A DNA stretch of 37,852 bases from Calditrichota bacterium (lineage in GTDB: Bacteria; Calditrichota; Calditrichia; RBG-13-44-9; J075), in contig JAGRBF010000022.1 of the NCBI GenBank assembly GCA_020434205.1, positions 1 to 37,852 of the forward strand. Reading direction: 5' to 3'. Made by a program: the position numbers and the translations under genes. Shown here piece after piece: positions 9,951 to 30,385 of the stretch (within the stretch, counting starts at the first letter, position 1; the number at the start of each line of letters is the position of its first letter). The notes below the pieces were generated by a model that saw only the letters and a program-made list of their open reading frames with translations, searched no databases and was not told where the DNA came from.

Positions 9951-9963
9951 ACAGGTGCAGATA

Positions 9964-12614: not shown

Positions 12615-12979
12615 TATCTCAGCACCTTTTTAACAACGGCCAGAAGTTGATCCGGGGAGAAGGGTTTGATAATCCATCCGGTGGCCCCGGCCTGTTTTGC
12701 TGCCATCTTTTTTTCCGCCTGGGATTCGGTCGTTAAGGCAACGATCGGCACGAAGCGGAGGTTGGCATTGGCCCGCACTTTTTGAATCAGCTGAATCCCG
12801 TTCATATTGGGCATGTGGATATCGGTGATAATCATATCCACCCGATTCTGGCTGAGCTTGTTCAGGGCGTCCACGCCATCGCTGGCCTGGACCATCGTAT
12901 ATCCCGCCTGGGAGAGCGTCAAACTCACCATTTGGCGAATGCTTGATGAGTCATCCACGGTCATGACTACTTTACTCAT
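12614..12979 (-). CDS. cheY: CheY-type single-domain response regulator
   Basis: The 121-residue product is one receiver domain. D9/D10 form the acidic pocket, D53 (ITDIHMPNMNG) is the phosphorylation site, T83 (VALTTES) and K105 (IIKPF) complete the switch residues. It is the likely CheA target that signals to the flagellar motor. The position equivalent to the switch aromatic is Trp102 rather than Tyr, as in many CheY proteins close to CheA genes. Its ATG overlaps the STAS stop (ATGA) and its stop overlaps the cheA ATG, giving tight coupling. Whether this or another CheY in the genome contacts FliM cannot be decided here. Confidence 0.95.
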   Translation of the reverse strand: MSKVVMTVDDSSSIRQMVSLTLSQAGYTMVQASDGVDALNKLSQNRVDMIITDIHMPNMNGIQLIQKVRANANLRFVPIVALTTESQAEKKMAAKQAGATGWIIKPFSPDQLLAVVKKVLR

Positions 12980-13299
12980 TTCGTAACTCCTTTGGTTCTG
13001 TATTCACCGCTCAGTCCCGCATATCCGCTCAACGAAACCGTTTCCTCCCACAAGCCGTCACCGGGGAATGCGCACTGAACGTCAATTTTGTTTTTCTCGC
13101 AATACTTCAGAACACCGTCCAACAACTGCAGTCCGGTGATATCGACCTCTTCCACATCCGCCAGCTCCAGCCTGACCGGTTCTTTTCCGGAGAGTATTTC
13201 CAGAAGCTTGCCGCGGGTTTCCTCTGCGCTGGCGATGGTAAAGTCGCCGCTCAGGGAAATGGTTTTAAGTCCGTCTTTTTCTGTTTGCCGAAGGTCCAT
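12976..13299 (-). CDS. STAS-domain protein (anti-sigma-antagonist-like)
   Basis: The 107-residue product is a single STAS domain: LKTISLSGDFTIASAEETR, then LELADVEEVDITGLQLLDG. The residue aligned with the phosphorylated Ser of SpoIIAA-type antagonists is Thr55 (DITGLQ), so phospho-regulation is still possible. STAS proteins occur in some chemotaxis gene clusters, where their role is poorly defined. It follows the MCP-like gene and overlaps cheY by four bases. No partner anti-sigma kinase is seen in the window apart from the ATP-binding, His-less kinase-like protein at 4255-5169. A link between these two is speculative. Confidence 0.88.
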   Translation of the reverse strand: MDLRQTEKDGLKTISLSGDFTIASAEETRGKLLEILSGKEPVRLELADVEEVDITGLQLLDGVLKYCEKNKIDVQCAFPGDGLWEETVSLSGYAGLSGEYRTKGVTK

Positions 13300-13315
13300 T
13301 TCTTACCTCTGGTTA

Positions 13316-15307
13316 TTAAAACAAGTCTACGTTATCGCCGAGCAGATCATCGCCCCCGATATCGCCCCAGATCTCATCATCTTCTCCGCCGGCGGCGGGA
13401 TCCGGGGTATCCACAACGCTTTGATCGTGGAAAAGCCGGGCGTGAATTTCCCGTTCGCTATCCATGGAGTATAGGCTGGCGTAGTGGCGGACCAGCCCTC
13501 CCAGATCCGGCAGCAGGATTTCCGGTTCGATGCGACTGCTGTGGTCGATCAGACCATTGATGCCGCGGATTACCGAGTCCACTTTCTCCGAGAACAGGTC
13601 TTTGAACCGGGAATTGCGCACCAGGCGGGCCAGGTTATCGGAGATAAAATCGCTGCCCTTTTGAATTTCACTGACCAGGTGCAGGAGACTATGATGGGTT
13701 CCCTGAAAGATGGTCAGCTGTTTTTCCAGGGCGGTCATGGATTCCGCACCGTTGAATTTCCATTTGCTGGCTTCGCTATTGGAAATGCTTTTCTGCAATT
13801 CCTCGGAAATGGTGGTAATGTCCTTGAGATCGGTTAACAGCCGTTCGGTGTCCGCCTGGGTGTGCATCGAGGCTTCCTTGATATGTTCGGCCACCACCGC
13901 CATGGCGGCGCCTTCGCTACCGGCGCGGGCCGCTTTGATGCGGGCGTTGAGGGCGGTGGTTTCGATATTGGAGCCGATTTCCTCGATTTCGGCGATAAAA
14001 CCCGAAAACTGCTGGACATCGTGGGAAACGGAGAGGATCAGGTCTACCAGTTCGTCCCGGTGAGCGGTATTGCCCTGGAGCATGTCCATCAGCTCCACCA
14101 TACCGTTTTCGATTTCCTTAAAGAAATCGTCCTGAACCAGTTTGGTGGATCCCCCCAGGGTCTCGACCTGATCGCAGAGCTGGCTGACGTCGTGCCCGAT
14201 GCCGCGAAGGTTGGAGAAAATATTGTGGATGGCCTTATTGAAATCGTTGCGGGCGTCCACGCTCTGGGCGATTTCCAGATGAAAGCTGGCCCGGGCGGTC
14301 AAAAGCGCCAGGTAAAACTTGGGAATCGCTTCCGAAGTGGTGGCGTCACAGTTTTCAAAATCCTCCATTTTGCCCACCACGTCTTCGAAAACCGAAACCA
14401 CGTGTTCCAGTTTCTGGCGAATGATGTCGTGGTGCTGGAGGGACATGATCACTTCCGAGAAGCGATTTTCGATGTCCTCGGACAGGTAGGCGACCTGCTC
14501 GGCCAGGCGGTAAGAGGAGGTTTGCCGTCCCGTAAAGTTGATCAGGCGGGTCAGGGTGGCCTTGATGTTGGCCTGGGTCTGATTCACCTGAAGATCTTTA
14601 AGCTGCTGCATGCGGCTGATGGTTTTGCCGATGGTTTTGCGGACCTTGCGCAGCATCTGGAAGAACTTGGTAAATTTGTCGCGAATCTGGTTGGACAGGG
14701 ATTCGATATTTTTGCCAAGGGTGTTGAAGTCCTTGCCCATTTTGCGGAGGGCGGTGCTTTCGATCCGGGTTACCCGGCTGTACATCTCCAGGGTTTTGAC
14801 AATCTTCTCGAAGCCCTGTTCGAAATTGAGGATGCGCTCGAAAATCCCGTTGATCTCCAGAAGGAACTGAAGATCCCGCTGGATATTTTTGTTAACCCCG
14901 GCCAGAGAGCTATCGATATCGTCCATGATCGAGGTAATGGCATCGAAAACCTTTTCGGTTTCCTCTCCGGCAATGGTTTCCAGAAAACTTTTGAAATGGC
15001 GATTGAGGTTGTTGGTCTCGGTTTTAAAGCTGAAGAGCGATTCCCCGATGCCCAGAAAATCTTTTTCGGTCTCGGTGGACAGTTGCGAGGCGTTCTTTTT
15101 GATAGCCTGAAGGTTGTTGCGAATGCTGGCTAAAGTGCTGCGGCCATCGGCCGGCACCATTTTGGCGGAAATGTCGATGGGCAGGGAGGAAACAATATCA
15201 TTAACCGTCGAATAGGTGGGAGAAATGAGCTCGCCCAGCTTATCGACCCTGGCATCCATGCCTTCAGGTAAGGTATTTTGCGATTCGTTCGTGAGATCCA
15301 ATTCCAT
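13316..15307 (-). CDS. Soluble MCP-like protein with CheZ-like motif and tail
   Basis: The 663-residue product has no membrane segment and is almost wholly alpha-helical coiled coil. Residues ~440-485 are a divergent MCP hairpin tip (TALNARIKAARAG then MAVVAEHIKEAS; compare [13 protein letters not shown] and [12 protein letters not shown] in the membrane MCP). In an earlier helix, SLQHHDIIRQKLEHV (289-303) contains D294-x3-Q298. This matches the DxxxQ catalytic pattern of the CheZ phosphatase and its surrounding sequence (QDFQDLTGQ). A weaker copy, RFKDLFSEKV, occurs at 567-576. The C terminus is an acidic linker followed by DDLLGDNVDLF, resembling the CheY-binding CheZ tail DDLLDSLGF. No other CheY-P phosphatase gene is seen in the window. 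It is the first gene after a sigma-28-like promoter. Receptor-like scaffold, phosphatase, or both remain possible. Confidence 0.75.
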   Translation of the reverse strand: MELDLTNESQNTLPEGMDARVDKLGELISPTYSTVNDIVSSLPIDISAKMVPADGRSTLASIRNNLQAIKKNASQLSTETEKDFLGIGESLFSFKTETNNLNRHFKSFLETIAGEETEKVFDAITSIMDDIDSSLAGVNKNIQRDLQFLLEINGIFERILNFEQGFEKIVKTLEMYSRVTRIESTALRKMGKDFNTLGKNIESLSNQIRDKFTKFFQMLRKVRKTIGKTISRMQQLKDLQVNQTQANIKATLTRLINFTGRQTSSYRLAEQVAYLSEDIENRFSEVIMSLQHHDIIRQKLEHVVSVFEDVVGKMEDFENCDATTSEAIPKFYLALLTARASFHLEIAQSVDARNDFNKAIHNIFSNLRGIGHDVSQLCDQVETLGGSTKLVQDDFFKEIENGMVELMDMLQGNTAHRDELVDLILSVSHDVQQFSGFIAEIEEIGSNIETTALNARIKAARAGSEGAAMAVVAEHIKEASMHTQADTERLLTDLKDITTISEELQKSISNSEASKWKFNGAESMTALEKQLTIFQGTHHSLLHLVSEIQKGSDFISDNLARLVRNSRFKDLFSEKVDSVIRGINGLIDHSSRIEPEILLPDLGGLVRHYASLYSMDSEREIHARLFHDQSVVDTPDPAAGGEDDEIWGDIGGDDLLGDNVDLF

Positions 15308-15672: not shown

Positions 15673-17040
15673 TTATTGCGGCAGGGTTTGCAGGAGGTTT
15701 AACGCCCGTTGTTGATCCCCACCTTTGGCATAAATGCCGGCCAGGCGGCGCACCAGCACCGGAGTCGGGTCATACGCCAGAGATTTTTCCAGAACCATCG
15801 AGGCTTCGCGAAAACGCTCCATTTTGATCAGCACCACGCTGAGCAGGTCGGCCACCTGGGCATTTTCCGGCTCTTTTTCCCAGAGTTTACAGAGCACCGT
15901 GCGGGCCTCGCTGAGGCGCTGGGTTTTCAGATAGAGCTCGGCAAGCTGCCGCAGCAGGCGGGTATTTTCCGGATGGACGGGCAGCACCTTTTCCAAATAG
16001 GTCAGCGCCTCTTCGAAATTGCCTTCCCGCAGGGCCAATTGCCCCAGCTCAAAATCAATCTGACTTTCATTGATAATAATGTCGGTCGAAATCTGGTTGT
16101 CTTCCGGGCGGGTCCGGCGATTCTGTTCGGCCAGTTTCAACAGGTATTTTCTGGCGGATGCGTGTTCTCCGCGCTCCATTGCCACCCGGTAGGACAAATA
16201 ATACCCGCCGATTTGATTGGCCTGCAGCTTCAGGGAATAGCGGAGCAAATCTTCCGCTTTGTCGAGATCCTGCACCTTCATGCACGCTTCGGCAAAGGCA
16301 TTGTAAAGCGAAACCGTCATGGCCTTGTCAAACTGATCGAGATCCAGCCCTTTCTGAAAATGGGGCAGGGATTTTTCGATTTCCTCGCTGAGCACGTAAT
16401 GTTGGGCGAGGGTAAAATGAGCGTAGGCGCTATCGGGGCATTCCTCGGCCATTTGTTCGAGCAGCTTGCGATTGCGCAGTCTTTTGTGGTCCTGAAGGGC
16501 CTGATCGGCATTGTCGTAACCGAGGTGATCCAGAATTATTTTACTGTTCCGGGTTTTACCGCCCATTTTCGATACGCTGGGGGAAATTTGTTCGTGGATA
16601 CGCCCGGAGAAGTAAATGCCATGATGGTTGGTGAAAAGGCGGTGTCCGGTGGACATGTGCACATGTTGCCCGGCCTTAACCACGCTGGCAATCTGCACCA
16701 GCACCATCACCGGTTCCTTCTCCACGGTCAGTTCGTTGAGCAGGGTTTCCCGGCTCTCTTTCCACAGCCGCTCATCGGCATCCATCCAGAGAATCCAATC
16801 TCCGGTAGCGTGTTGGATAGAGGCATTGCGGGCTGCCGCAAAATGGTCGCACCATTCAAAATGATGCACCTCGGCGCCGAATTTTTTGGCAATTTCCACG
16901 GTGTTATCCGTGGAGCCGGTATCCACCACCACGATTTGGTCCACCACGTCCCGAACGCTGCTCAGACAGTCTGCTAAAAAGCGGCTTTCATTCCGGACGA
17001 TCATACACAGCGACAGGGTGGGGCGCTCCTGATTACTCAT
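15673..17040 (-). CDS. GT2 glycosyltransferase with C-terminal TPR array
   Basis: The 455-residue product begins with a GT2 domain of the SunS/'TPR glycosyltransferase' style: SLCMIVRNESRFLADCLSSV (~10-29), VVVDTGSTDNTVEIA (~37-51) and the metal-binding WILWMDADERLW (~82-93). The nucleotide-sugar donor and acceptor are unknown. From about residue 210 onward TPR units follow (for example AYAHFTLAQHYVLSEEIEKS and LLRQLAELYLKTQRLSEAR), which usually bind protein acceptors or partners. It starts inside the last codons of the giant upstream gene (8-nt overlap), so translation is coupled. Together with the giant protein it probably builds or attaches the same glycan. It is the last gene of the block. 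Confidence 0.9.
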   Translation of the reverse strand: MSNQERPTLSLCMIVRNESRFLADCLSSVRDVVDQIVVVDTGSTDNTVEIAKKFGAEVHHFEWCDHFAAARNASIQHATGDWILWMDADERLWKESRETLLNELTVEKEPVMVLVQIASVVKAGQHVHMSTGHRLFTNHHGIYFSGRIHEQISPSVSKMGGKTRNSKIILDHLGYDNADQALQDHKRLRNRKLLEQMAEECPDSAYAHFTLAQHYVLSEEIEKSLPHFQKGLDLDQFDKAMTVSLYNAFAEACMKVQDLDKAEDLLRYSLKLQANQIGGYYLSYRVAMERGEHASARKYLLKLAEQNRRTRPEDNQISTDIIINESQIDFELGQLALREGNFEEALTYLEKVLPVHPENTRLLRQLAELYLKTQRLSEARTVLCKLWEKEPENAQVADLLSVVLIKMERFREASMVLEKSLAYDPTPVLVRRLAGIYAKGGDQQRALNLLQTLPQ

Positions 17041-20000
17041 TTTCGACCTCCTTCTCCGAGCCCGTTTTCATACTTTCCAGATAGGCCTGCGCGACCCCGT
17101 TTTGTTCATCGATTTCGGTGACCCGCTCAAAATATTCCCGGGCGGTTCCCGGGCGGCCGGCCTGAAGGTTGATTTCCCCCAGGCGGATCAGCGCGGCGGT
17201 GTTGTCGGGATCTTCTTCGGCCAGGGTATTGAGAAGCTTCAGAGCTTCCTGGTATTGCTCCCGATCCAGCAGTAAATCGGCCAGATTGAGGCGTCCCATG
17301 GCGTGTTGCGGATCCAGGGAAAGGGCATTTTCCAGAAAAGCCGCGGCTTCCTCAAACTTGCCCTCCTGGCGGGCGATATTGCCCAGATGGGCAAAGGCGT
17401 CCGGGAAGGCGGGTTCCAGTTGCGAAACCCGTTCCAGGTAGCGTCGGGCATTGCTGAGCTGTCCCTCCCCCAGGTAGGCCAGGGCGCTGCCGTACAAAGC
17501 CTCCAGGTGGTCGGGATTTTTGATCAGCACCCGTCCGTATTCGGCCAGAGCGGTGTCCAGATCCCCGACATTGAGGGCGGTTTTGGCCTGAAGCAGGGCT
17601 TCCCTGAGGACGTCCCGGGCCGGTTCCTCGCCGCTTTCCACCACGTGGGCCAGCAGCTCCCGGGCCTCGGGATTATCGGGGTCCGTCACCAGCACCTGCT
17701 CGAGATTACTCCGGGCATCGGCCTTATGTCCCGCCTCCATCTGGAGTCTGGCGATATCCAGCCGGGTGTCCAGATCATCAGGATGTTTGGCCAGGATCTG
17801 GTTCAGGGCGGCTACACCGTTTTCGAAATCCCCTTCCTGCAGCAGCAGATGGGCATAATTGCGCTGGGCACTCAGGAAGTCGTTTTCCAGCTCAATGGCC
17901 TTGATAAACAAACTTTTGGCAGATTCCAGATCTCCGGCGTGGGCGAGAATGGTGCCGATTTCGTTGTAAGCGCCGGCATAGTCGGGGGCCAGGCCCACCA
18001 GCTCGTCCAGGGTTTCCAGGGCCTGATGGGTGTTACCCAATTCCCGGGCGCTCACCGCCAGGGCATAGAGGGCGTCCGGCCAGACGGGGTTTTCGGCAAC
18101 CAGGTTTTCCAGAATCCGGTAAGCCTCTTCCACATCTCCGGTCAGCAAGGCTTCGGTTGCGCGCTCCAGCAGGGCGGGATGCATTTCGTGGAGGGGATTT
18201 TTTTTCTCCAGCATCTCCACGTAATCCACCTCCGGCCATTTCTGGTGAAAGAGATCCTTGCGCTCCCGCAGATTGGCTTCGTAGTCGATATTGTTGGCTT
18301 TAAAGGTCTGGCTGCCGAAATGGTGGATAAAGGTGCTTTCGTCGACCATCAGGGTGTAGCCCGCTTTGCGGATGCGCAGGCACAGATCATCGTCCTCAAA
18401 ATTACCGTCGCCGAAAGCCTCGTCGAAGCCGCCCAGTTCCCGGTAAAGTTCGGTACGCATCAGCATGGCAAATCCGGCTAACCGCCTGCGCGGGGTTAAC
18501 ACCCCTTCGTTGGTGCGTCGCACCTTTTCCGCAAATGCCGGGAAATCCCGAACATCCGAATAGGGTACGTTGGCCACCATTTGCCGCCCGCTGATGCTGT
18601 TGGTTATCGGGCCGACGGCCCCAATTCGCGGGCTTTTGTTGAGGCTGTCCACCAGACTCTCCAACCACCCGTCGCAGACCAGCACATCGTTGTTGAGCAG
18701 CATAACCAGCTCGCCGGAAGCTTTTTCCACGCCCTGATTATTGCCCCCGGCAAATCCGAGGTTCTTTTTGTTGTTGATCAACCGGATTCGCGGATCCTTA
18801 CGCGCTCTGGTTTTGAGAGCTTTCTTGACCTTGTAGTCCGAACCGTTGTCCACCAGGACAATCTCATACGAGATGCGGGTGTGGGCCGCGATGGCGTCCA
18901 GACATTTTTCAGTAAACTCCAGGGCGTTAAAGGACAGCATGACAATCGATACCTGCGGCTGTTCCGCTCCGGCTCCCCTTTCGGGATTTTCCGCAGCAGT
19001 GCCCGGTTTGGACGCCCCGGCCTGATAAGCAACCGGTTTCATGGTCGCCTTACCCACCGGCCTGCTGCTGCCGTCGGCGAGGATTTTTTCCAGCTCCCGG
19101 CGGATGGCGGCAGGACTCCAATTGGTCTCCACCAGCTCCCGACCGGCCTGGGAAAGCTGCTCCCACAAGGCCTGATCCTGGTAAAGACGCACCACCGCTT
19201 CGGCAAAAGCCCCGGGATCGTCGGCAATCAGCGCGTGGGTTTCGTCTTTCAGCCCCATGCCCTCCGCCCCAATGGTGGTGGACACCACCGGCAGGCCCCA
19301 GGAAAGCGCCTCGCCGATTTTACCCTTCATCCCCGCCCCGTATCGCAGAGGACTAACCGAAACCCGGGCGCCGGTAAGGTATTCGTCCAGACTTTCCACG
19401 AAGCCCGGCACCGCCACCTTGTCGCCCTCGTAAGCCTGAATTTCCGGCGGGGGCTGCTGCCCCCCCAGAACCAGGGGAACTTCCGGCAGGGCTTTTTGAA
19501 TAAGGGGCCAGATCTCCTTCATGAAGAAATGAACCCCGTCCACATTGGGGAGATGATTGTAATTTCCGACGAAAAATAGTCCCTCGGTTTCCCCGAAACT
19601 TTTTCGCACTTCTACTTCCTTGTGGATATTGGGCACAACGTAAATGGGCTTGTCCTTCAATGCCGGCTGAACCGCCTTGCGGTCTTCATCGGTAACCACC
19701 CAAAGACTGTCCGCGCTCATGTAGGTGAAGATCTCAAGGCGCATGTTTTTTTCGGCCTGATCCATCAGATCCGAATCGTTTTTCAGTTCGGCCTCGCGCT
19801 TTTCGCGCAGGAAGTGAATATCCACGGTATCGACAACGATGTGCGTTTCCGGGGAGAGCTGGCGGATCAGGGGAATGTAATAAAGACCGATGTTCCAGAA
19901 GGACATGATGGCGTATTCGAAGAAGCGCTCCTGGAAGATCAGTTTGTAAGGGATCTCCGGAACTTCTTTCTCCATCCTCAGCCCCACCGCCATGAGGGCT

Positions 20001-23000
20001 TTGTTGTCGTTGCTGTGAACTTCCACCCCGAGCTGCCGCAGAATTTCCGCGTAGTGCAGGCGCTGGTCCCCTACCCTGGCCAGGAAGGTGACGTGATAGC
20101 CCATTTCGCGGAGAATTTTGATATAGCTGAACAGCCGCAGGGAGCCGGAAGCGCGGTCAAAAATGGGAAACATGGGATCGGCAATAAAGATATTCCCGAT
20201 GATGTTGCGGTTGGAGGCCTTCACCACATTGGCGGGGTGATTGACCTGCTGTTCGGCCAGTTCGGCATCCCATTTTTCCACAAACTTGTCGCGGTTTATG
20301 ACCTGAAAACGTTTCATGCCGCTGCTCAGATCCGTCCCGGCGCTTTTGCCCTCGTGGTGAACCACCCGGCTGGCCGGCTGGTAAAAAACCTTGTATCCCA
20401 GGCTGCGAACCCCGAAACACAGGTCGGTATCCTCATAATAGGCCGGGCTGTAGCGGGTGTCGAAGCCGCCCAGTTCCCGCCACAAACTCTGGCGGACCAT
20501 CAGGGCGGCGCCGGAGCAGTAGTCCACCTCCCGCACAAAATTGAAGCGCGGATCGTTGGGATTGCCCCCGCGGCCGTAATTCCAGCCGTTGCCGTCGGAA
20601 AAAATGATCCCCCCGGCTTCCTGAAGGGTGCCGTCCGGATAGATCAGCTTGGAGCCAATCGCCCCGCAGTCTTCCCGCTCGTCCATGGTGCGCACCAGGG
20701 TGCTCAACCAGGCCCTCTCCACCTCGGTATCGTTATTCAGGAACAGAATAAACTCCCCGCGGGCCATGGCCGCCCCGGCGTTACAGGCCCCCACAAAACC
20801 GAGATTTTTTTCGTTGAAGTGATAGCGGATTTTCCCGTCCATTTTGGCCAGGTAGTTGCGGGTATCGTCCGTGGAGCCGTCGTCCACCACAATGATCTCA
20901 TAAGGCACCTGATCGGTATTGTTGAAAATGGCCTTCAGGCATTGATGGGTGAGATCCAGGTGATTGTAAACCGGAATAACGATCGAGACACGGGGCAGAA
21001 CCGCCTGCGCTTTGGGCAACACGGCGGCCAGATCCGTCAGGTAATCCGAGGGTTCAATGGGGTAATTACGCGCCTCCAGAGAAACCTCGGGAGTCTGGAA
21101 ACAGCACTGCGGTTCCGCCACGGTACCTTTGGCCTGCAGGCGGAGAAATCCCTGACAGGGCGCCAGCTTGCCTTCGGAGAGCAGGCGCAGATCCAGATCC
21201 AGAAGCCCCAGGATCAGGGCCTGATCCGCCTCGTTTTCCGGATCGAAATTGGGGCCGTAAACCCGGTCGATCAGGCGATTAACCAGGGCTCCGAAAGGCA
21301 GGTAGTGGGAAACGTCGAAATGCTGAAGCAGGGCCGGCAGAATATCCTGGGCGCGGATCCCTTCGAATCCCATATCGGTGCAATCCACATTGTAAATAGC
21401 CTGATCAATATGGCCGCTGTAGCCGTTGCGGCGGTAGCGCTCCGGCAGACGCTGCCAGATCTCGTCCATCACCGTTTTGGCGTTGTCCCAGAGCAGGTGA
21501 CCGTTGCGGCCGATCATGTCGTTGACCAGGAAAATCACCTCCGGGGTGGCATGGGCGGCCACGGTGGCGAAAATTTCCTCCAGCGAAACCAGGTGATGCA
21601 GGGAGTGATTGGCCAGCACCACGTCGATGCGCAGATCCCCCAGATCGAGGCGGTTGACGTCCTGCACCTCAAAACTGGCGGTAATCCCGGCCTCGGAGGC
21701 TTCCTTGCGGGCCCGCTCGATCATATCCGGATTAATATCATATCCGTGCAGAATCACCATTTCCGGCTCTTTGAGCTTTTTGAGCAGGCGAATTTCGGTA
21801 TCGCCGTTGCCGCAGGCCAGGGACAACACATGGACGGGGCGGTCCAGCTTTTCGATAAGAGCGTCGATTTCCATCACCCACCAATCCAGAAAATTGGGAT
21901 AGCCGGTGAGGGATTTCAGGTTGGGCTGCAACAGCTGTTTGGCGTAAAAATGGTGAATGGCCGGCAGCTTGTGGACCTGGGTGGTGTTCTGGTAGATGGA
22001 GATCTCGTGCTTCATTTTTTGATGATAAGCCGTTGATCCCACTTCGGTTGCATCGCCTTTTTCCGCCGGGGCGGCAGTAGCCGGTCCGGCCAGTTGCAAA
22101 ATTTCGGCGGCACTGCGGAAAACATCGGGCAGCTGCCCGACGGCCCGGGCGGTTTCTACCCAGCTGTTGTCCGCCTCGTAGCCAAGGGCGATCAGCAATT
22201 GACCACTTTCCTCGTCAAAAATGCGGCGCTGCTCCTCATCCCAGCTTTCCGCCCAGGTCACCCGTTTTTTGCCGTCCTTAAAGGACGAATTGACGCTTTG
22301 GTCCGAGCTGAGGGCCTCCGCCACCGCGGCCTCGTAGGCAAATCCCAGCGCCGGCAGGGCCTGGTGCATTTCCCCCACGGGATCGGTGCGCAACTGCTCG
22401 TTGTAGAGGCGATACATACGTTCGGGATGCTCCGCCTCGAAGCGCAGGCCGGCCGTTACAAATTGGGTCCAGGTGCGGCAGGCCTTGCGAAAATCGCTGG
22501 CCCAGTCGATCTCGAAGCCGCTGTTGATCATCGATTGCACCACATTGCGGCCGTCGCGAATCAGTTGAACAAAGCTGCCTTTGGGAAACATCAGGCTGAG
22601 CAACTGAACGCTCAGGGTGTACTGCGGAGTCCCGTCCACCCAGCGTTTGCCGGGGGTGCGGCGCCGGTACATCTCGTTGATGCCGTTGCCGATGGAGGCC
22701 ATGTATTCCTGAAGGGAAACCTGGCGGTTGGAGAGCCAATGGTGTTTGCCCCGGGTGGTGCCGTTGGCGTAGCCGTCCAGAGCCCCGCGGGCTACAAATT
22801 CCAGGTAATTGCTTTCCGGGCCGGGCGTGGCCTGGGAATGCTGCCCGATGGCGATGGAGAGGGCGCTGGTGCCGGAGCGATGGCAGCCCATCACAAAAAC
22901 GGGATTTTCGTCTACCGGCACCACCCGGACACCGGTATTGCGCACCGTATACCAGGCGTATTGTTTACCGAGGCCCCCGGTTTTCAGAATTTCGAACCCC

Positions 23001-25984
23001 AATTCCCGGGAAAGGGCCTCAATTTCTTCGGGGGAAATATTGGCCCCCATCCAGGTGTCTTTTTCCACCTGCTGATATTCTATGGAGTTATCTCCCTGAA
23101 CCTGAAACTTGAAGATGCCGCCTTTCTTGAGCACCCGCATGGTTTCGCGAATGTAGTTGAAGATCACCGCCTTGTCGGGAATATGCTGGAAAACGATAAA
23201 GGAGAAGACGAAATCGAAGCTGTTATCATCAAAATCGCCCAGATCGCTGCCGCTGGTCTCCAGCAGGGTGGCGTTGGGAACATCCGCGAGGCGCGATTTC
23301 CCCTGGCGAATCATTTCACCGGAAACGTCGATGCCGACCACCTCGCCGAAATGGGTGGCCAGGTGTTTGGTCATACGTCCGATGCCGCAGCCGATTTCCA
23401 GCATACGCTTGTTCCTGAGATCTCCATCGGGGGCGATCAACTCCCGGTCCACCAGCACGTATTCCCGGACGTTTTGCTCCCCGGAACCGTCGAACTCCGC
23501 CTCGCTCTGATTGCGATCGGTGCTGCGCACGTAGTATCGGGCGTTTTCGACGGCGCGGGCATTCCAGTCCTCTTTCATGTTTTTTCCGCCACCGGGGCGT
23601 TTCGGCCGGGATTCACTTTCCCGGGGAGCGGGGGCACGCAGGGCGGCCAGGGCTTCCGGGAAATCCGGGGCCTGGGCGGCCGCTTCCGGATCCTTGCGGA
23701 ACAAAAAGGCGTGGTTGTGGAAATTCTCCAGGCGCCCAAACTGGCCGCAATCCTGGTAGAAATCCATCACAAAACCCAACTCGCGCAGCTTGTTGTAAAG
23801 GTCTCCGTCCACGATGCCCCACTGCCAGATGTTGTGGATATCGCGGTAGGTTCTCCCGGGATGATCGGGATGCGGCTCGTCCAGTTTGTTGAACAGATCG
23901 GGATAAAAACCCTCAGTGGGATTATGGGGCACGTTGTGGAAGTATTCCTCTGCCCCTAACTCCAATAGCCGCTGGGTTTTATCACCCTTAATAAATTGCT
24001 GATTATAGATAATGAAGTGCCCGGTATGGGGGGCATAACGCTCCAGAACCGCATCCCAATTGGGCTTTACCTGGTGCAGCAGCACATCGTAGAGCAGTAT
24101 GGCGTCCACTTCACCGATGGTTTGGGCGGGATCCACCTCGCCGAAATTCCCGGTTTTGAGGGAGAGCTGGGGATAATCTTCCTGGCGCGCCTGGACCGCC
24201 TCGTTGATTTTGGTATCCACCAGAACCATTTTGTCCAATTGACCGTGTTCCAGGGCGTAAAAGGTATAGCCGCCATCAACGCCCCAGACCCCGCCCAGAT
24301 CTGCCAGACTTTTGATCGGGTAGCGCTGCAGGGCCAGATCGATCAACGACAATTTTTCCGGCACCAGGCGGGGATATTCCGGGCGGGCCCGCTCGGACAA
24401 ACGCTGCGGAGGAGCCGCTTTTTCCAGCCCGGCGGGAGGTGCTTCGTTTTGGGGAGAGGCAATGGCATAGGCCCATTTAACCCCGTGAACATTGTCCAGG
24501 GGAGCGGCCAGCAGGGCCTGGGGCGCGTCCGGGCTCAAAAAACCGGCCGCTTTGGCATCCTGATAAAGTTGACGCCAGGCCTCCACAGCCCGGGTGGCGT
24601 ATTCATCCTGCTTGCTGCGCTGCTTCTCGTGCAGACGAAATTCGCTGAGGGGATCGACCAGATACACCAGATCTCCCTTGCCCAACAGGTTCACCCACAT
24701 CGTCACGTCGCCGTTGCGGGGAGCGGGCCGCCCGCGGTAGCTCATGATATGCGGTTTGGCGCCTTCCAGATCGCGGCGGCGAAACAGGGTGGTAGAGGGC
24801 TCCCCGATGTAATTGACGCAGGCGTTCAGCAGGGCGTTAACCGCCAGAACCCCGTCGATGCGGCAATCCTCGCCCACAATGGGACTGTTGAAGTGCCGAT
24901 CCGGCAGGGCATTGCCGTCCTGGTCTATCAGGCGGCGGTAGGAAGTTACCAGAGCAATTTCCGGCCTATCTCTCAGGATGGCGGCCATGCGGGCGACCGC
25001 CTCGGGATGAAGTCGGTCGTCATCGTTCAAAAATTTGACGTATTCCCCTTTGGCCAGGGAAAAGACCTTGAGGTAATTGGCCCGTCCCCCGATGTTGCCT
25101 TCGTTGTTGACGTAGCGAATGCGGTTGTCGTTGCGGAATTCCGCCACCACCGCGGCAACCGCTTCCTCGTCGCTGTCGTCGCAGACCACCACTTCAATAT
25201 TTTGGTAGCTTTGGTTGAGGGCGCTTTCCAGGGTTTCCCGCAGGTAATCGGCTTTATAGGCAGGAACCAGAATGCTGACCAGCGGCTCCTCCTCGCTATC
25301 GCGCTCCGGCCAGTAGCAGGTTACCTCCAGGAAATTGGGATCCCGATCGGCGGAGGCGTGTTCGTCATTTTCTTCGGCGGGAATGGGCACCAGCCCCACC
25401 TGGGTAATCAGATCTTCCAGGCTTTCCCGGTTAAACAGGCATTTGTAATGGGAAAAAGCGTGAGACAGCCATTCCGAGCTGTTGTCGGTCCAGGTGGTCA
25501 GGGAGTCCTTCTCCCGGTAATCCCGCCAGGAACCGTCCCGAAGGGTATCCAGGATTTTGTCCATATCCGGGGTAAGGATTTGCATGGCGCCTTCCGGGGC
25601 CAGCACCCGGCGACATTCCCGCAGCAGCGCCAGGGCGGAGCCGACCCCCAGGTGTTCCAGGCAGTTTTCCAGGACCACCCCGGCCACCACGTTTCCGGGG
25701 ATGGGAAGGTTTTGGCTGAGGGTGGCCTGCCCGTTTTTAACGGCGGCCAGATCGATGGTTAAGGCGCCCTCGATGGGGGAAAGATTAAAACCGATCCGCA
25801 GGAAGCGCACCCCCTGCTCATGGTCTTTCCAGACCTCTATCTGGCGATCCAGATCTGCTGAGGTTTGGATTAGTCGGGCGCTGATGCTGGGCTTCTCCCC
25901 TGCCTGCCGTTTCTGGTTCCGGTCCGCGCTTTTTTCAACCTGAGGTTGATGCTCACTGGCGCTGGGGTTGTTTAAATCCGTCAT
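17033..25984 (-). CDS. Giant modular methyltransferase/glycosyltransferase/sulfotransferase-TPR protein
   Basis: One uninterrupted frame encodes 2983 residues. Approximate modules: MT1 (~60-225, degenerate SAM motif, LRIGFNLSPIEG); GT2-A (~233-485, VCDDSDEE, FLNDDDRLHPE); MT2 (~545-765, LADLGGVWGVDGG); MT3 (~800-1000, MLEIGCGIGRMTKHL); sulfotransferase (~1025-1280, VMGCHRSGTSALS and LIRDGRNVVQSMI); MT4 (~1323-1570, LSLACGNGDTEIRLL); GT2-B (~1660-1915, VVDDGSTDDT, FLNNDTEVERAW, EDTDLCF); GT4 (~1925-2305, GMKGKIGEALSWGLPVV); GT2-C (~2340-2580, LLNNDVLVCDGW, EDDDLCLRI); about ten TPRs (~2600-2975). The frame is open 159 nt further upstream, but that overlaps the aminotransferase gene, so ATG 25984 is preferred although its ribosome site is weak. 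No signal peptide or membrane segment: it is probably cytoplasmic. It likely assembles and decorates a sulfated, methylated oligosaccharide; substrate and acceptor are unknown. Confidence 0.88.
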   Translation of the reverse strand: MTDLNNPSASEHQPQVEKSADRNQKRQAGEKPSISARLIQTSADLDRQIEVWKDHEQGVRFLRIGFNLSPIEGALTIDLAAVKNGQATLSQNLPIPGNVVAGVVLENCLEHLGVGSALALLRECRRVLAPEGAMQILTPDMDKILDTLRDGSWRDYREKDSLTTWTDNSSEWLSHAFSHYKCLFNRESLEDLITQVGLVPIPAEENDEHASADRDPNFLEVTCYWPERDSEEEPLVSILVPAYKADYLRETLESALNQSYQNIEVVVCDDSDEEAVAAVVAEFRNDNRIRYVNNEGNIGGRANYLKVFSLAKGEYVKFLNDDDRLHPEAVARMAAILRDRPEIALVTSYRRLIDQDGNALPDRHFNSPIVGEDCRIDGVLAVNALLNACVNYIGEPSTTLFRRRDLEGAKPHIMSYRGRPAPRNGDVTMWVNLLGKGDLVYLVDPLSEFRLHEKQRSKQDEYATRAVEAWRQLYQDAKAAGFLSPDAPQALLAAPLDNVHGVKWAYAIASPQNEAPPAGLEKAAPPQRLSERARPEYPRLVPEKLSLIDLALQRYPIKSLADLGGVWGVDGGYTFYALEHGQLDKMVLVDTKINEAVQARQEDYPQLSLKTGNFGEVDPAQTIGEVDAILLYDVLLHQVKPNWDAVLERYAPHTGHFIIYNQQFIKGDKTQRLLELGAEEYFHNVPHNPTEGFYPDLFNKLDEPHPDHPGRTYRDIHNIWQWGIVDGDLYNKLRELGFVMDFYQDCGQFGRLENFHNHAFLFRKDPEAAAQAPDFPEALAALRAPAPRESESRPKRPGGGKNMKEDWNARAVENARYYVRSTDRNQSEAEFDGSGEQNVREYVLVDRELIAPDGDLRNKRMLEIGCGIGRMTKHLATHFGEVVGIDVSGEMIRQGKSRLADVPNATLLETSGSDLGDFDDNSFDFVFSFIVFQHIPDKAVIFNYIRETMRVLKKGGIFKFQVQGDNSIEYQQVEKDTWMGANISPEEIEALSRELGFEILKTGGLGKQYAWYTVRNTGVRVVPVDENPVFVMGCHRSGTSALSIAIGQHSQATPGPESNYLEFVARGALDGYANGTTRGKHHWLSNRQVSLQEYMASIGNGINEMYRRRTPGKRWVDGTPQYTLSVQLLSLMFPKGSFVQLIRDGRNVVQSMINSGFEIDWASDFRKACRTWTQFVTAGLRFEAEHPERMYRLYNEQLRTDPVGEMHQALPALGFAYEAAVAEALSSDQSVNSSFKDGKKRVTWAESWDEEQRRIFDEESGQLLIALGYEADNSWVETARAVGQLPDVFRSAAEILQLAGPATAAPAEKGDATEVGSTAYHQKMKHEISIYQNTTQVHKLPAIHHFYAKQLLQPNLKSLTGYPNFLDWWVMEIDALIEKLDRPVHVLSLACGNGDTEIRLLKKLKEPEMVILHGYDINPDMIERARKEASEAGITASFEVQDVNRLDLGDLRIDVVLANHSLHHLVSLEEIFATVAAHATPEVIFLVNDMIGRNGHLLWDNAKTVMDEIWQRLPERYRRNGYSGHIDQAIYNVDCTDMGFEGIRAQDILPALLQHFDVSHYLPFGALVNRLIDRVYGPNFDPENEADQALILGLLDLDLRLLSEGKLAPCQGFLRLQAKGTVAEPQCCFQTPEVSLEARNYPIEPSDYLTDLAAVLPKAQAVLPRVSIVIPVYNHLDLTHQCLKAIFNNTDQVPYEIIVVDDGSTDDTRNYLAKMDGKIRYHFNEKNLGFVGACNAGAAMARGEFILFLNNDTEVERAWLSTLVRTMDEREDCGAIGSKLIYPDGTLQEAGGIIFSDGNGWNYGRGGNPNDPRFNFVREVDYCSGAALMVRQSLWRELGGFDTRYSPAYYEDTDLCFGVRSLGYKVFYQPASRVVHHEGKSAGTDLSSGMKRFQVINRDKFVEKWDAELAEQQVNHPANVVKASNRNIIGNIFIADPMFPIFDRASGSLRLFSYIKILREMGYHVTFLARVGDQRLHYAEILRQLGVEVHSNDNKALMAVGLRMEKEVPEIPYKLIFQERFFEYAIMSFWNIGLYYIPLIRQLSPETHIVVDTVDIHFLREKREAELKNDSDLMDQAEKNMRLEIFTYMSADSLWVVTDEDRKAVQPALKDKPIYVVPNIHKEVEVRKSFGETEGLFFVGNYNHLPNVDGVHFFMKEIWPLIQKALPEVPLVLGGQQPPPEIQAYEGDKVAVPGFVESLDEYLTGARVSVSPLRYGAGMKGKIGEALSWGLPVVSTTIGAEGMGLKDETHALIADDPGAFAEAVVRLYQDQALWEQLSQAGRELVETNWSPAAIRRELEKILADGSSRPVGKATMKPVAYQAGASKPGTAAENPERGAGAEQPQVSIVMLSFNALEFTEKCLDAIAAHTRISYEIVLVDNGSDYKVKKALKTRARKDPRIRLINNKKNLGFAGGNNQGVEKASGELVMLLNNDVLVCDGWLESLVDSLNKSPRIGAVGPITNSISGRQMVANVPYSDVRDFPAFAEKVRRTNEGVLTPRRRLAGFAMLMRTELYRELGGFDEAFGDGNFEDDDLCLRIRKAGYTLMVDESTFIHHFGSQTFKANNIDYEANLRERKDLFHQKWPEVDYVEMLEKKNPLHEMHPALLERATEALLTGDVEEAYRILENLVAENPVWPDALYALAVSARELGNTHQALETLDELVGLAPDYAGAYNEIGTILAHAGDLESAKSLFIKAIELENDFLSAQRNYAHLLLQEGDFENGVAALNQILAKHPDDLDTRLDIARLQMEAGHKADARSNLEQVLVTDPDNPEARELLAHVVESGEEPARDVLREALLQAKTALNVGDLDTALAEYGRVLIKNPDHLEALYGSALAYLGEGQLSNARRYLERVSQLEPAFPDAFAHLGNIARQEGKFEEAAAFLENALSLDPQHAMGRLNLADLLLDREQYQEALKLLNTLAEEDPDNTAALIRLGEINLQAGRPGTAREYFERVTEIDEQNGVAQAYLESMKTGSEKEVENE

Positions 25985-26027: not shown

Positions 26028-27302
26028 TCAGGAGACCCGCGGCGTCCGGGTGATTTTCTTTTTCGGTTTTGCGGCAATGCTGACCGCCTCCAGTTGGGCT
26101 TCCTGGGTGCGATGCAGCAGATTAACGTGAATGCGGCTGCCATTCTCCGCTATAAAGCGAATCAGTCCGCACAGGCGGGAGATGCTTTGCGAATCCATGG
26201 CGGTGCCGGTGGGCAGCAGCATAAAACGCTCCACCGCCCTTTCGGTTGCCGGCAGCAGCATTCCCGCATTGGGGAAATAGGAGCGATACGGCTCCATACG
26301 ATGGCATCCGGGATAGAAATAGCGCCGGGCGCGGACATTCTCCGCATGCAGAATTTCCACGAAAGCATCGCGGGAGAGGCCGCAGCGATTAGCGTCCACC
26401 TCTACGGCGATGTACTGGTAATTGTATTGCTCTCCGGGTTCAAACCTGAAAAGGGCTATACCCGGTATATCGGCCAGTTCCCGTTCATACTGGAGATAAT
26501 GCTGATAATTAACCGCCATAAACTCATCCAGGCTTTCCAGCCCGGTTAACCCCATGGCCGCGGAAACTTCGTTCATTTTGCCGTTGGTTCCGATGTAGAT
26601 GACGTTGTCCAGCCCGGAAAAACCGAAATTCTGCATCAGGCGCATGCGGGCGGCCAGTTCGTCGTTATTGGTAGCCACCGCCCCGCCCTCGAAGGTGTTG
26701 AAAAATTTGGTGGCGTGGAAGCTGAAGACCTCCGCATCGCCGAAATTGCCCACCATGCGGCCGTTGCGGCTGCAGCCAAAGGCATGTGCGGCGTCGAAGA
26801 GCAAGGCCAGTTGGTGCTCCCCGGCAATTTCCTGCAGCGCTTCGGTATTGCAGACCCGTCCCCACAGGTGAACCCCGAGAATACCGCTGGTTTTGGGGGT
26901 TATCATACGGCGGACCTGGGCGGGATCGATGGTCATGGTCTGGGGATCGATATCGCAGAAAACCGGGGTAATTTCCTGCCATTGCAGGGCGTGGGGGGTG
27001 GCGATGAAGGTCATCGACGGTACGATCACTTCACCGGTCAGGCCCAGGGCGCGAATGGCGATTTCCAGGGCGACGGTGCCGTTGCACATGGTGATGCAGT
27101 GTTTGACGCCCAGAAAAGCGGCCAGGCGCTGCTCCAGCTCTTCCACGTAAGGCCCGCGATTGGTAAGGCGGCGGCGATCCAGCATGGTCTCGATCCTGGC
27201 CATCAACTGCGCGCGGTCTCCGATATTGGGAGATCCGACATGCAGCGTTTCGGCAAAGGCGGGCTGACCGCCAAAAACCGCCAGTTTGGCTATGTCTTTC
27301 AC
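26028..27302 (-). CDS. DegT/DnrJ/EryC1-family sugar aminotransferase
   Basis: The 424-residue product is a PLP-dependent aminotransferase of the DegT family. CNGTVALEIAIRAL (73-86) binds the cofactor phosphate, D170 in LLFDAAHAFG contacts the pyridine nitrogen, and K199 in SFHATKFFNTFEGG is the PLP-binding lysine. Members convert a keto nucleotide-sugar to an amino sugar (for example 4-amino-4,6-dideoxy sugars) used in glycans and flagellar glycosylation. The GTG start at 27302 has an AGGGAA element upstream. A basic tail (AKPKKKITRTPR) extends past the usual end. No dehydratase or epimerase is in the window, so the keto-sugar must come from elsewhere. The GNAT upstream could acylate the amino group (inference). 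Confidence 0.93.
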   Translation of the reverse strand: MKDIAKLAVFGGQPAFAETLHVGSPNIGDRAQLMARIETMLDRRRLTNRGPYVEELEQRLAAFLGVKHCITMCNGTVALEIAIRALGLTGEVIVPSMTFIATPHALQWQEITPVFCDIDPQTMTIDPAQVRRMITPKTSGILGVHLWGRVCNTEALQEIAGEHQLALLFDAAHAFGCSRNGRMVGNFGDAEVFSFHATKFFNTFEGGAVATNNDELAARMRLMQNFGFSGLDNVIYIGTNGKMNEVSAAMGLTGLESLDEFMAVNYQHYLQYERELADIPGIALFRFEPGEQYNYQYIAVEVDANRCGLSRDAFVEILHAENVRARRYFYPGCHRMEPYRSYFPNAGMLLPATERAVERFMLLPTGTAMDSQSISRLCGLIRFIAENGSRIHVNLLHRTQEAQLEAVSIAAKPKKKITRTPRVS

Positions 27303-27404: not shown

Positions 27405-28406
27405 TTATCCGACGTGTACAACTTCCCTGCGACTGCGAATCCGGTTGACGACCGCTCCCCACTCCCGCCGCTTTTCCCGCTCTTCCGGGGGGAGTTTTTG
27501 ATATGCGGGTTTTTCGTGCAATTCCAGAGGCGCAATTTTTTCGCGAAGGGCCGCTTCCTCGCCGATTTCAAAATCCGGCCAGTAATGCAATTCGCTCATT
27601 TCCCGGTGGCAAACGGCCTCGACATAGCGGATTTCCTCCTCGCTGAGGCCTTCCCGGTACTTGTTGAAATTCTTTTTCATCACCGCTTTTTGGGTGTTTT
27701 CCCAATCGGGATTGCGCCGGGCATTGGCCACGCCCAGGGCGTTTTTTTCCAGGGATTGCATCCCGCTTTCGTAGGGAATATCCAGAAAAGTGCACACCTT
27801 GCGGAGGGTGGCCGGGGTATCGGCGACCAGATCTTCATAGTGAATTTTGAGAATGAAGGGTCGATTCTCCAGCTGATGATACAGCGATAAACAGGCGCTT
27901 TGATCCTGCTGCCAGATACTGGCGGAGCGGATGGCGCAGCCGCGCAGGTTCGGCGATTTTTTCCAGGAGAGGGCCATATCGCGCGGGTCGCGCACCAGCC
28001 ACACAAAGCGGGCCTCCGGAAAATGGCGGCGAATAAAGTCCCATTGGCGGTACAGGTGGTTTTCCTTCACAAAAAGGCGATTTTTATGGTGGCCGCGGGC
28101 TTCGCGTTCAAAAAAAGCCCGAAACAGGCCACTCAGGTCTCCCGGAGTGGTAATCTGCAGCAGCTCGCTGCGGGTCCAGCGGGTAGCCCACACCCCCATT
28201 TTGGCCTGAAAAAGATCCGCGATATCTTCGATCAGCAACTCCCAGTTTCCCGGATCCTGGAGATCCCCGTATCCGGCGGCATTTTCCAGAACAATGCGCA
28301 TGGCGTGGGTTGGAGAGGGTCCGCAATACTGGCTGTGGTTATCCATGAGGCGGGTTATCAGGTTGCTTCCGGAGCGTTCCGAGCACAGCAGAAAGGTAAA
28401 ATCCAC
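27405..28406 (-). CDS. Sulfotransferase-family protein (second stand-alone copy)
   Basis: The 333-residue product has the PAPS-binding 5' motif near its N terminus (LLCSERSGSNLITRLM, 6-21) and the 3' motif FVWLVRDPRDMALSW (134-148), followed by the usual helical C-terminal half. Such enzymes transfer sulfate from PAPS to a hydroxyl or amino group, often on carbohydrates. The frame is open 210 nt further upstream, but that part overlaps the previous gene in another frame. The GTG at 28406, four bases after the preceding stop and following GGGAG, gives a protein starting MDFTFLLCSERSGS, as typical for the family. The sugar acceptor is unknown. A 102-nt gap without a recognisable signal separates it from the aminotransferase gene. 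Confidence 0.88.
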   Translation of the reverse strand: MDFTFLLCSERSGSNLITRLMDNHSQYCGPSPTHAMRIVLENAAGYGDLQDPGNWELLIEDIADLFQAKMGVWATRWTRSELLQITTPGDLSGLFRAFFEREARGHHKNRLFVKENHLYRQWDFIRRHFPEARFVWLVRDPRDMALSWKKSPNLRGCAIRSASIWQQDQSACLSLYHQLENRPFILKIHYEDLVADTPATLRKVCTFLDIPYESGMQSLEKNALGVANARRNPDWENTQKAVMKKNFNKYREGLSEEEIRYVEAVCHREMSELHYWPDFEIGEEAALREKIAPLELHEKPAYQKLPPEEREKRREWGAVVNRIRSRREVVHVG

Positions 28407-28410: not shown

Positions 28411-29445
28411 CTAACTCCCTTCCTTAACCAGGGTTTCTTCGGCGAGGCGATAGCGACTCCACAAGGCCTTGCGAAGGCGTTCCTTGCCGGCGGCATCCAG
28501 GAATTTGGGGGTCCGGACATCAAAGGAAGGGGGACCCTCGTATCCGGCCGGCAATTCCCAACCGGCGTTAGCCAGCAAGGTGCGCAGGCGATGCCAGACC
28601 ATGGCCGGATTCTCACAGAATTGTTGATAATCGACGGTTATATGGCGTTCCGGGGCAATTTCGGCGAGCCCCTGGCACACGTCGCGATCGGTTTCCATCA
28701 CCTGGACGGCCACCTGATGAAAGGCATCGCAGTCGCGAACGGCCTCATAAGCAGGGGGTTTAAAAGAATACCAGCGGCTGATGGTGCCGAAATATTTCTG
28801 GCGGGCGCGCAGCAAGGACTGAGCGTTCCAGAAAGGATCCCGCCGGGTGTGGATAAAAACCATTTGGGGGAATTTTTCGGCCATAAAGGGCAGATTCCAG
28901 TTGAACATCAGCCCCTTGAAGGCAAAGGGTTTTCCGAATACCGAGGTCAGGGCGTCCAGCTCGGCAGCCAGGGTGGGAATGTCCACCTGCGCCAGAGCGG
29001 CATCATCGAGAAACTGGACATCCGGATAAGAAAAAAAGCGCCGCCAGAAATACCAGAACTCGTTGGGCGCCAGGGTGCCGCTGGTTTTGCCGAGTTCGTT
29101 TTCCCAGTTGGGCTCCATCTGCCGCCATTCCTGCAGTTCGTCCCGAAAGGCAAAGCGCGGATCGGTGAGCAACTGCTGAATTTTGGCCCCGATATAAGGT
29201 GCCTGATAAAAGCGGGAGAGCAAATTGCTGGGATAGGCAAAAGCGCCGCTGTTGGCCAGCCACTGCATCATCAGGGTGGTGCCGCTACGCGGCGCGCCAA
29301 CCACCATCACCAGGGGAAAACGGGGATGATGGAAATCCTCAAGAACCTGATCTTCGGCGTTGCCGAGGAGGGTATTCAGCTCGGCGAGGAGCTTTTCCAG
29401 GTCGGCGTTGCGGGCAAATCCGGGGAGTTGGGTCAGCTCAACCAT
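28411..29445 (-). CDS. Sulfotransferase-family protein (first stand-alone copy)
   Basis: The 344-residue product has the 5' phosphosulfate-binding loop GAPRSGTTLMMQWL (50-63) and the 3' motif IHTRRDPFWNAQSLL (198-212). An N-terminal extension of about 45 residues precedes the loop. It is distinct in sequence from the neighbouring sulfotransferase and from the internal sulfotransferase module of the giant protein, so three separate sulfation activities are encoded in this block. It starts within the last codons of the GNAT gene (8-nt overlap) and ends just before the next sulfotransferase. The acceptor is presumably a surface glycan, from context only. Confidence 0.88.
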   Translation of the reverse strand: MVELTQLPGFARNADLEKLLAELNTLLGNAEDQVLEDFHHPRFPLVMVVGAPRSGTTLMMQWLANSGAFAYPSNLLSRFYQAPYIGAKIQQLLTDPRFAFRDELQEWRQMEPNWENELGKTSGTLAPNEFWYFWRRFFSYPDVQFLDDAALAQVDIPTLAAELDALTSVFGKPFAFKGLMFNWNLPFMAEKFPQMVFIHTRRDPFWNAQSLLRARQKYFGTISRWYSFKPPAYEAVRDCDAFHQVAVQVMETDRDVCQGLAEIAPERHITVDYQQFCENPAMVWHRLRTLLANAGWELPAGYEGPPSFDVRTPKFLDAAGKERLRKALWSRYRLAEETLVKEGS

Positions 29446-30385
29446 TGTGGCGCTCCGGGTCCCGGTAAGCGGGAAAAAAAGGTGACGCGGCGTCGCCGCT
29501 CAGATGCCGGTAAAGTTTTCGATTCACGATGCGGCCACCCAGATAAACGGTGCCCTTTTCGTTGCTCCATCCGCTTTTGAAGGCGCTCAGGCCGTCCTTT
29601 TGCCGGACGTTTCCGGCGGCGGCGCCCAGGTCTGCGAAGGCGAAACCCTGCTGCTTAAAAAAGCCGAGGGCTTCCCACATTAACCCGTAGGAAACGCGGG
29701 TGCGATAGCCGGTCTGGCTGTAAGCGCTGAGGTGGTGATAAACCCAGTCCCCATGGCCCAGCCACAGCTGAATACCGGTAATTTCCCCGTCCTTGCGGGC
29801 GGCAAAGGCCAGCATTTCCGGCATGGCCAGCTGGCGCCGGAATCCCTCCGGCGAAAAGGCGGCTACGCCGCTGATGGCGTGCCGGATCATCAATTCGCCA
29901 TACAAACGGTTCCAGTCCTCCCATAAATCCACCGGCAGGGGATGGAGGCCGATCTGATGCTGTTTGCGGCTACGCCGCGCATAATAGCGGTGATGGGAAT
30001 TCACCGCCAGATCCAGATCCTCACTCAAATTCACCAGATAATGCTCCTTGAAAGGGCGCAGGAGATCCGGGAAGGCCCGGCGCAACAGGGCGGGACTAAA
30101 ATTACCGGCGGGCGGGGTTACCAGGGTTACGCTGGCCAGATCTTCCGGCAAAGCGGCGAGATCTTCGGGGAGGGCCTGCCAATTGCGGCAGAAGAACATG
30201 GGATAAGTGCCCATGGCGTCAAAAAAAGCGGTATTGGGAATGGGGCGTTTCAGCAGCCAGCCTCCGGACCCGTTCAAGTGGAGAGGATCCCCGTACTCCG
30301 AGAGCGATTCGGCGTAGGCCCTGCTCAGATATCCGAAATCGCCGCCCAAAACCGGCTGCGCGGTAGGTGCCAGTAGCCAGCTCAT
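29438..30385 (-). CDS. FemAB-like GNAT acyltransferase
   Basis: The 315-residue product resembles the FemAB-like GNAT proteins found in polysaccharide and lipid-modification clusters. The C-terminal acyltransferase half includes FAARKDGEITGIQLWLGHGD (~193-212), YHHLSAYSQTGYRTRVSYGL and DLGAAAG...LSAFKSGWS. It probably transfers an acyl or aminoacyl group, perhaps to the amino sugar made by the DegT-type enzyme downstream. The start lies four bases after the flgL stop and uses the overlapping GAGGTAAGG as ribosome site. It is therefore directly coupled to the flagellar operon and is the first gene of the modification block. Substrate unknown. Confidence 0.8.
   Translation of the reverse strand: MSWLLAPTAQPVLGGDFGYLSRAYAESLSEYGDPLHLNGSGGWLLKRPIPNTAFFDAMGTYPMFFCRNWQALPEDLAALPEDLASVTLVTPPAGNFSPALLRRAFPDLLRPFKEHYLVNLSEDLDLAVNSHHRYYARRSRKQHQIGLHPLPVDLWEDWNRLYGELMIRHAISGVAAFSPEGFRRQLAMPEMLAFAARKDGEITGIQLWLGHGDWVYHHLSAYSQTGYRTRVSYGLMWEALGFFKQQGFAFADLGAAAGNVRQKDGLSAFKSGWSNEKGTVYLGGRIVNRKLYRHLSGDAASPFFPAYRDPERHNG

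Follow-up and report, generated by a model that had tools for sequence, protein, structure and literature searches.

A single gene of 2983 codons in the flagellar operon of a Calditrichota bacterium raises two questions: does it really encode one protein, and what would such a protein do for the flagellum? To answer them, we analyzed the window (the whole stretch of 37,852 nucleotides, contig JAGRBF010000022.1) together with related loci from other genomes. The giant gene is on the minus strand, with an ATG at 25984 and a stop codon ending at 17033, and its product of 2983 aa has a mass of 334 kDa and a pI of 5.1. This confirms the single open frame claimed by an earlier note on this DNA, to which we add the strand. 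The frame has a single, terminal stop and zero ambiguous bases. The computed chance of a stop-free run of 2983 codons at the window's composition is around 10^-46, and GC3 varies little along the frame (0.68-0.78) and is similar to that of the neighbouring genes (0.65-0.75). An in-frame ATG further upstream, at 26143, was rejected as the start because it falls within the aminotransferase gene (26028-27302), which makes 25984 the better choice. The full 2983 aa contain no hydrophobic segment of the kind that usually spans a membrane. NCBIfam gave many matches, generic, nearly all sub-threshold and mostly far below cut-off, and has no family named for this protein.

To identify the modules of the protein, we searched it with Pfam and modeled parts of its structure. 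From the N- to the C-terminus, the order is MT1, GT2a, MT2, MT3, sulfotransferase, MT4, GT2b, GT4, GT2c, and an array of TPRs, where MT stands for methyltransferase-like and GT for glycosyltransferase. Pfam recovers the three GT2, one GT4, and one sulfotransferase that had been proposed (E from 1.5e-31 to 1.6e-23). The family 2 glycosyltransferases match PF00535: GT2a at 24488-25288 (E 2e-25; motifs VVCDDSD and FLNDDD), GT2b at 20270-21013 (E 1.5e-31; VVDDGS, LNND, and YEDTDLC), and GT2c at 18185-18973 (E 4e-24; LVDNGS, LNND, EDDDLC, TPRRR, and GSQTFKAN). All three keep the acidic nucleotide-binding and DxD-like motifs, and GT2b and GT2c also keep E-D-x-D. The GT4 module (19058-20269; PF13692, Glyco_trans_1_4, E 5e-26) keeps EALSWGLPVV, and the sulfotransferase (22172-22921; PF13469, Sulfotransfer_3, E 1.6e-23) keeps both PAPS-binding motifs (GCHRSGTS and RDGR). 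Two modules are class I SAM methyltransferases, MT3 at 22955-23584 (PF08241, E 4e-22; LEIGCGIGRMT) and MT4 at 21065-22030 (PF13847, E 6e-18; LSLACGNGD). The earlier statement that the key motifs of all these modules are intact thus agrees with our analysis.

Of the four methyltransferase-like domains that had been claimed, MT3 and MT4 are sound in Pfam, but the other two are less clear. MT1 (25385-25873) has a Pfam match below cut-off that covers the second half of the module only. Its alignment with five relatives indicates a degraded domain: the glycine motif is gone (RIGFN, vs NIGSG or NIGCG in genomes G002, G003, G007, and G027) and the second motif reads LENCLEH, vs SEHFIEH or NEHFIEH in the same four genomes. 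MT1 is thus probably a worn-out methyltransferase whose counterparts in relatives are intact. MT2 (23645-24364; DLGGVWGVDGG and DVLLHQ) has no match in Pfam, and comparison with PDB sequences gave nothing useful. Its AlphaFold model, built from an alignment of two sequences, is poor (pLDDT 56). Among the 50 PDB fold matches listed for this model, nearly all are SAM methyltransferases or have that fold, each match being weak (best E 0.009), which makes MT2 a probable SAM methyltransferase. As active enzymes, MT1 and MT2 are both putative. Loss of catalytic residues in most modules had been named in advance as an argument against the multi-enzyme reading; we found the glycine motif of MT1 lost and the motifs of the modules other than MT1 and MT2 kept.

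The C-terminal end gave the best structural results. The AlphaFold model of the last 663 residues has a mean pLDDT of 87 and displays one GT domain followed by about 12 TPR hairpins, close to the ten or so repeats counted before; Pfam also recognizes this TPR array (17036-18169, E 3e-47). The best PDB fold match of the TPR part is the superhelix of O-GlcNAc transferase (E 5e-17), and polypeptide GalNAc transferases are among the fold matches of the GT part. In the model, an OGT-like TPR array next to a GalNAc-transferase-like GT fold would suit transfer of sugars to protein. The domain searches and structure predictions that the note had proposed were therefore clear in Pfam for all modules but MT1 and MT2 and good for the C-terminal model, but poor for the MT2 model.

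We then asked if the gene has relatives. A search of contigs with the whole giant protein as query returned no matches, and the alignment of GT2c succeeded as a query. This GT2c profile identified 80 loci, in Calditrichota, Neomarinimicrobiota, Brocadia and other Planctomycetota, Verrucomicrobia, Deltaproteobacteria, Nitrospira, and others. GT2c is the most conserved module, with 44-58% identity in 15 relatives. Identity is 49-56% for GT2a (G002, G003, G007, G018, and G027), 62% for the MT2 counterpart in G018, and, for MT4, 52% in G027 and 49-53% in three Neomarinimicrobiota. In most Calditrichota members the GT2c-TPR end of the protein is constant, and the module content otherwise differs strongly: two sulfotransferases accompany GT2-GT4-GT2-TPR in G017, there are five GT2 in G024, and both G034 and G021 combine GT2 and GT4 modules with two sulfotransferase types. 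The search for the same domain order in relatives, another suggestion of the note, thus found partial runs that recur and a full order that varies, with the neighbourhood of sulfotransferase and MT4 seen in no genome but this one.

These relatives allow an assessment of whether the frame is partly an artefact of assembly or binning that fused separate genes. The source genome is a draft of 710 contigs, and read in this light the long frame could be suspect. We compared the seams between modules across assemblies. The MT1-GT2a seam recurs in G002, G003, G007, and G027, the run GT2a-MT2-MT3-sulfotransferase in G018, the MT4-GT2b seam in G027 and in three Neomarinimicrobiota, and GT2b-GT4-GT2c, then followed by the TPRs, in many genomes. 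Every seam but one was thus reproduced. The exception, between sulfotransferase and MT4, had no second case in the 40 Calditrichota genomes searched nor a counterpart in any other genome examined; it is an ordinary Ala/Pro-rich linker devoid of direct repeats, and our repeat search saw none at the other seams of the gene either. Genome G027 could also be cited for an artefact, since it holds its modules in two overlapping frames. On the other hand, giant frames of 1.6-2.9 kaa are found at the same place in many independent Calditrichota assemblies, and one of these, the single-contig genome G017, has a frame of 1860 aa there. This recurrence argues against an artefact, which we regard as very improbable. 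The break in G027 lies inside the GT4 module (L023:6018-12931) and is most likely a frameshift in a draft genome or a recent split.

What the protein might act on is first suggested by its neighbours. The gene order in the window is flgF-like/flgG-flgA-flgH-flgI-flgJ-flgN-flgK-flgL, an acyltransferase-like gene, two sulfotransferases, an aminotransferase, the giant gene, and a GT2-TPR gene, all on the minus strand. From flgK-flgL through the accessory genes to the giant gene, most gaps are shorter than 120 nt. The genes for FlgK, FlgN, a FlgJ-like protein, FlgI, FlgH, FlgA, FlgG, and a further rod protein (31325-37850) were recognized with Pfam and NCBIfam, and that for FlgL, hook-associated protein 3 (30390-31271), with TIGR02550 (186 bits, above cut-off). 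The acyltransferase-like protein (29438-30385) resembles Acetyltransf_6 (FemAB/GNAT-type), scoring 20.5 bits with PF13480, just under the cut-off of 22, and a sequence search of the PDB gave no solved relative. Both stand-alone sulfotransferases match PF13469, B at 28411-29445 (E 5e-16) and A at 27405-28406 (E 4e-25). The start of A is probably the GTG at 28406 and not the listed GTG at 28616, because a GGGAG box precedes the former and the latter would overlap the upstream sulfotransferase by 206 nt. The aminotransferase (26028-27302) belongs to the DegT/DnrJ/EryC1/StrS group. It is closest to a dTDP-4-dehydro-6-deoxyglucose aminotransferase (PDB 2po3, E 7e-122), which we take to be DesI, and scores 521.5 bits with TIGR04427 of NCBIfam, under the cut-off of 650. 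Its sequence suggests that a 4-amino sugar donor of the viosamine/anthrose type is made in the flagellar operon. The genome also encodes an APS kinase and RmlB, which makes a supply of PAPS and dTDP-sugars plausible.

Downstream, a gene for a 455-aa GT2-TPR protein (15673-17040) shares its first 8 nt with the giant gene. Pfam finds only GT2 and TPR in its product. In the PDB, this product matches GmaR of Listeria with its GT2 half (22ao, E 1.7e-32), as well as SunS, a peptide glycosyltransferase (E 1.5e-21). Past a 365-nt gap there is a chemotaxis block (2689-15307, minus strand) with MCPs, STAS, CheY, CheA, CheWs, CheR, a histidine kinase, CheD, and CheB. An MCP-like protein with a weak signalling-domain match (13316-15307) stands between the glycosylation genes and this block, and beyond cheB a YceI-like gene and a TPR-like frame (633-2590) are on the opposite strand. 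A point against a role in flagellin modification is that this locus has no flagellin gene: flagellin is encoded on another contig (136), next to a fliD-like frame. Counted from its first ATG it is a short protein of 272 aa, and 21 of 60 residues in a central stretch are Ser/Thr. The genome has no match to Maf (PF01973), a profile whose control matches were all archaeal and thus gave no bacterial positive control.

Exopolysaccharide and LPS glycans are also products of GT2 families, and sets of GT2, GT4, MT, and sulfotransferase occur in polysaccharide loci too. The giant protein might instead make a cell-surface polysaccharide, an LPS, or an S-layer glycan, its place in the flagellar operon being due to chance or co-regulation. 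Some far relatives, in Verrucomicrobia and Deltaproteobacteria, are indeed away from any recognized flgL within the stretches examined. Yet wherever both genes were recognized, the giant GT gene is downstream of flgL, on the same strand and at 0.1-5.2 kb (24 of 24 loci, of which 19 are distinct, five having been counted twice). Among these loci, those from Neomarinimicrobiota, Brocadia, and Verrucomicrobia had been selected independently of any flagellar criterion. This arrangement reaches beyond Calditrichota and Neomarinimicrobiota. Giant GT-TPR proteins 3' of flgL were observed in Verrucomicrobia (L103:5741-12823 and L121:3428-10513) and in Brocadia (L092:6617-11221).

We also compared the distribution of GT2c (profile match with E below 1e-40) and flagellin (PF00669) in 40 Calditrichota genomes. 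The GT2c profile is found in 25 of the 27 genomes with flagellin and in none of the 13 without it (Fisher P 9e-9, ignoring the kinship between genomes). In each of four families (f1, f3, f4, and f5), some members have both and others have neither. In G010, one of the two exceptions, a giant frame is cut by the end of a contig that also carries FlgL. The flagellar link of the giant protein is therefore strong, as the synteny across phyla, the co-occurrence, and the GmaR-like partner gene all bear out the flagellar operon context originally claimed. The synteny and the co-occurrence, together with the lack of a polymerase, flippase, or exporter among the annotated genes of the window, make a role in making surface polysaccharides quite unlikely.

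In our view, the giant protein is likely a multi-enzyme glycan synthase of the flagellum that works in the cytoplasm. Beyond the domains, operon, synteny, and co-occurrence with flagellin, which we observed directly, we infer the acceptor, the order of reactions, the activities, the identity of the sugars, and the service of one chain to one glycan as follows. The C-terminal TPR superhelix would hold flagellin before export. The first sugar would be placed on Ser/Thr either by the GmaR-like GT2-TPR neighbour or by the GT2c-TPR end itself, and the remaining GT modules would lengthen it into a chain a few sugars long. This chain would be methylated by the MT modules and, with PAPS as sulfate donor, sulfated by the built-in sulfotransferase and the two stand-alone ones. 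One sugar donor, an N-acylated 4-amino-4,6-dideoxyhexose (viosamine/anthrose-like), would probably come from the DesI-like aminotransferase together with the acyltransferase-like protein. By analogy with known systems, the product of this locus should be a short chain, O-linked and bearing methyl and sulfate groups and possibly N-acyl-4-amino-4,6-dideoxyhexose. From lineage to lineage, N-terminal modules come, go, and are exchanged, whereas the GT2-TPR end is conserved, so the glycans of the filament should differ between genomes. The idea of the earlier note, an oligosaccharide built, methylated, and sulfated while the TPRs hold the acceptor, is compatible with these data and partly supported by them.

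The modules might instead act on separate sites or proteins of the flagellum, with no assembly line and several of them passive, e.g., the sulfotransferase on tyrosines and the MTs on side chains. The nearest solved relatives of the built-in sulfotransferase are tyrosylprotein sulfotransferases, MT1 is degraded, and the set of modules varies freely between genomes, all of which would fit such a scheme. However, the tyrosylprotein sulfotransferase match (PDB sequence search, E 1e-7) is weak, Sulfotransfer_3 (PF13469) is a broad family, and the adjoining genes for a sugar aminotransferase and an acyltransferase-like protein point to sugar chemistry. We thus find independent action of the modules unlikely and retain the glycan synthase. 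A more specific form of it is tentative, and we would not bet on it: flagellin would bind a single time to the TPR superhelix, the growing glycan would be passed by channelling from one fused GT, MT, or sulfotransferase module to the next, and lineages would diversify their filament glycans by swapping whole modules in the manner of modular polyketide synthases.

How does this protein relate to known systems? FlmG of Caulobacter crescentus is also a cytoplasmic modular flagellin O-glycosyltransferase with TPR and GT fused in one chain, and its TPR domain binds flagellins and is required for glycosylation (PMC7591256). It differs in having 596 aa, one GT-B domain, and pseudaminic acid as its sugar (PMC7591256), whereas the giant protein has several GT2, GT4, MT, and sulfotransferase modules. 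The TPRs are N-terminal and the GT-B C-terminal in FlmG, whereas the TPRs of the giant protein are C-terminal and adjoin a GT2. It may thus work like FlmG, but it is not a FlmG-type member. GmaR of Listeria, a GT with TPRs, transfers GlcNAc to flagellin, to which its authors propose that the TPRs bind (PMC9638930). It has a single GT and is also an anti-repressor (PMC9638930). Its sequence relative in the window is the neighbouring gene at 15673-17040, not the giant one.

In Clostridioides difficile type B, the GT1/GT2/GT3 locus has PF00535 GTs, a FemAB-like acyltransferase, an FdtB-like aminotransferase, and a fusion of a GT with a methyltransferase (PF08241), assigned to adding and methylating rhamnoses; these are, however, separate small proteins, with a sulfonated peptidyl-amido sugar and no sulfotransferase fusion (PMC5207246). 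PA1091/FgtA of Pseudomonas, in a flagellin glycosylation locus, fuses a GT to a second transferase, and VioT/Fgt of P. syringae is a transferase of 1173 aa; the flagellin there bears viosamine, made via an aminotransferase, then acylated and methylated (PMC11833859, PMC3927599). These proteins reach at most about 1.2 kaa, and the available text of both sources reports no TPR or sulfotransferase in them. The flagellin glycosylation islands of enterobacteria are also variable and include GT41 enzymes with methyltransferase domains, but they have one to three GTs each, and their description has no sulfotransferase in its text (PMC4875605).

Flagellin glycosylation islands, TPR-guided flagellin GTs, GT/MT fusions (PMC5207246, PMC4875605), and a GT-transferase fusion (PMC11833859) are therefore already known. 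In the open-licence literature searched, we found no sulfotransferase in flagellin glycosylation, no multi-domain GT-TPR protein of such size near flagella, and no module shuffling at flgL. The combination, described before as unfamiliar in a flagellar operon, is thus known in kind, as fusions of GTs with MTs or other transferases by flagellin, and new in the size of the protein, the sulfotransferase module, and the shuffling of modules. The flagellin glycosylation enzymes described in the papers cited here have one to a few domains, whereas in this family as many as nine catalytic-type modules are joined in one chain to a putative protein-docking array. Members occupy the same flagellar position in several phyla and, in Calditrichota, are missing where flagellin is missing. 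If our reading is true, the order of modules could predict the structure of the glycan, sulfation would give flagella a novel surface chemistry, and swappable glycosylation modules targeted by TPRs would be readily available from this family. The largest relative that we saw is a frame of 3893 aa in a Nitrospira MAG (L125:1567-13245), in which eight GT2 stretches are combined with GT4-like modules and TPRs.
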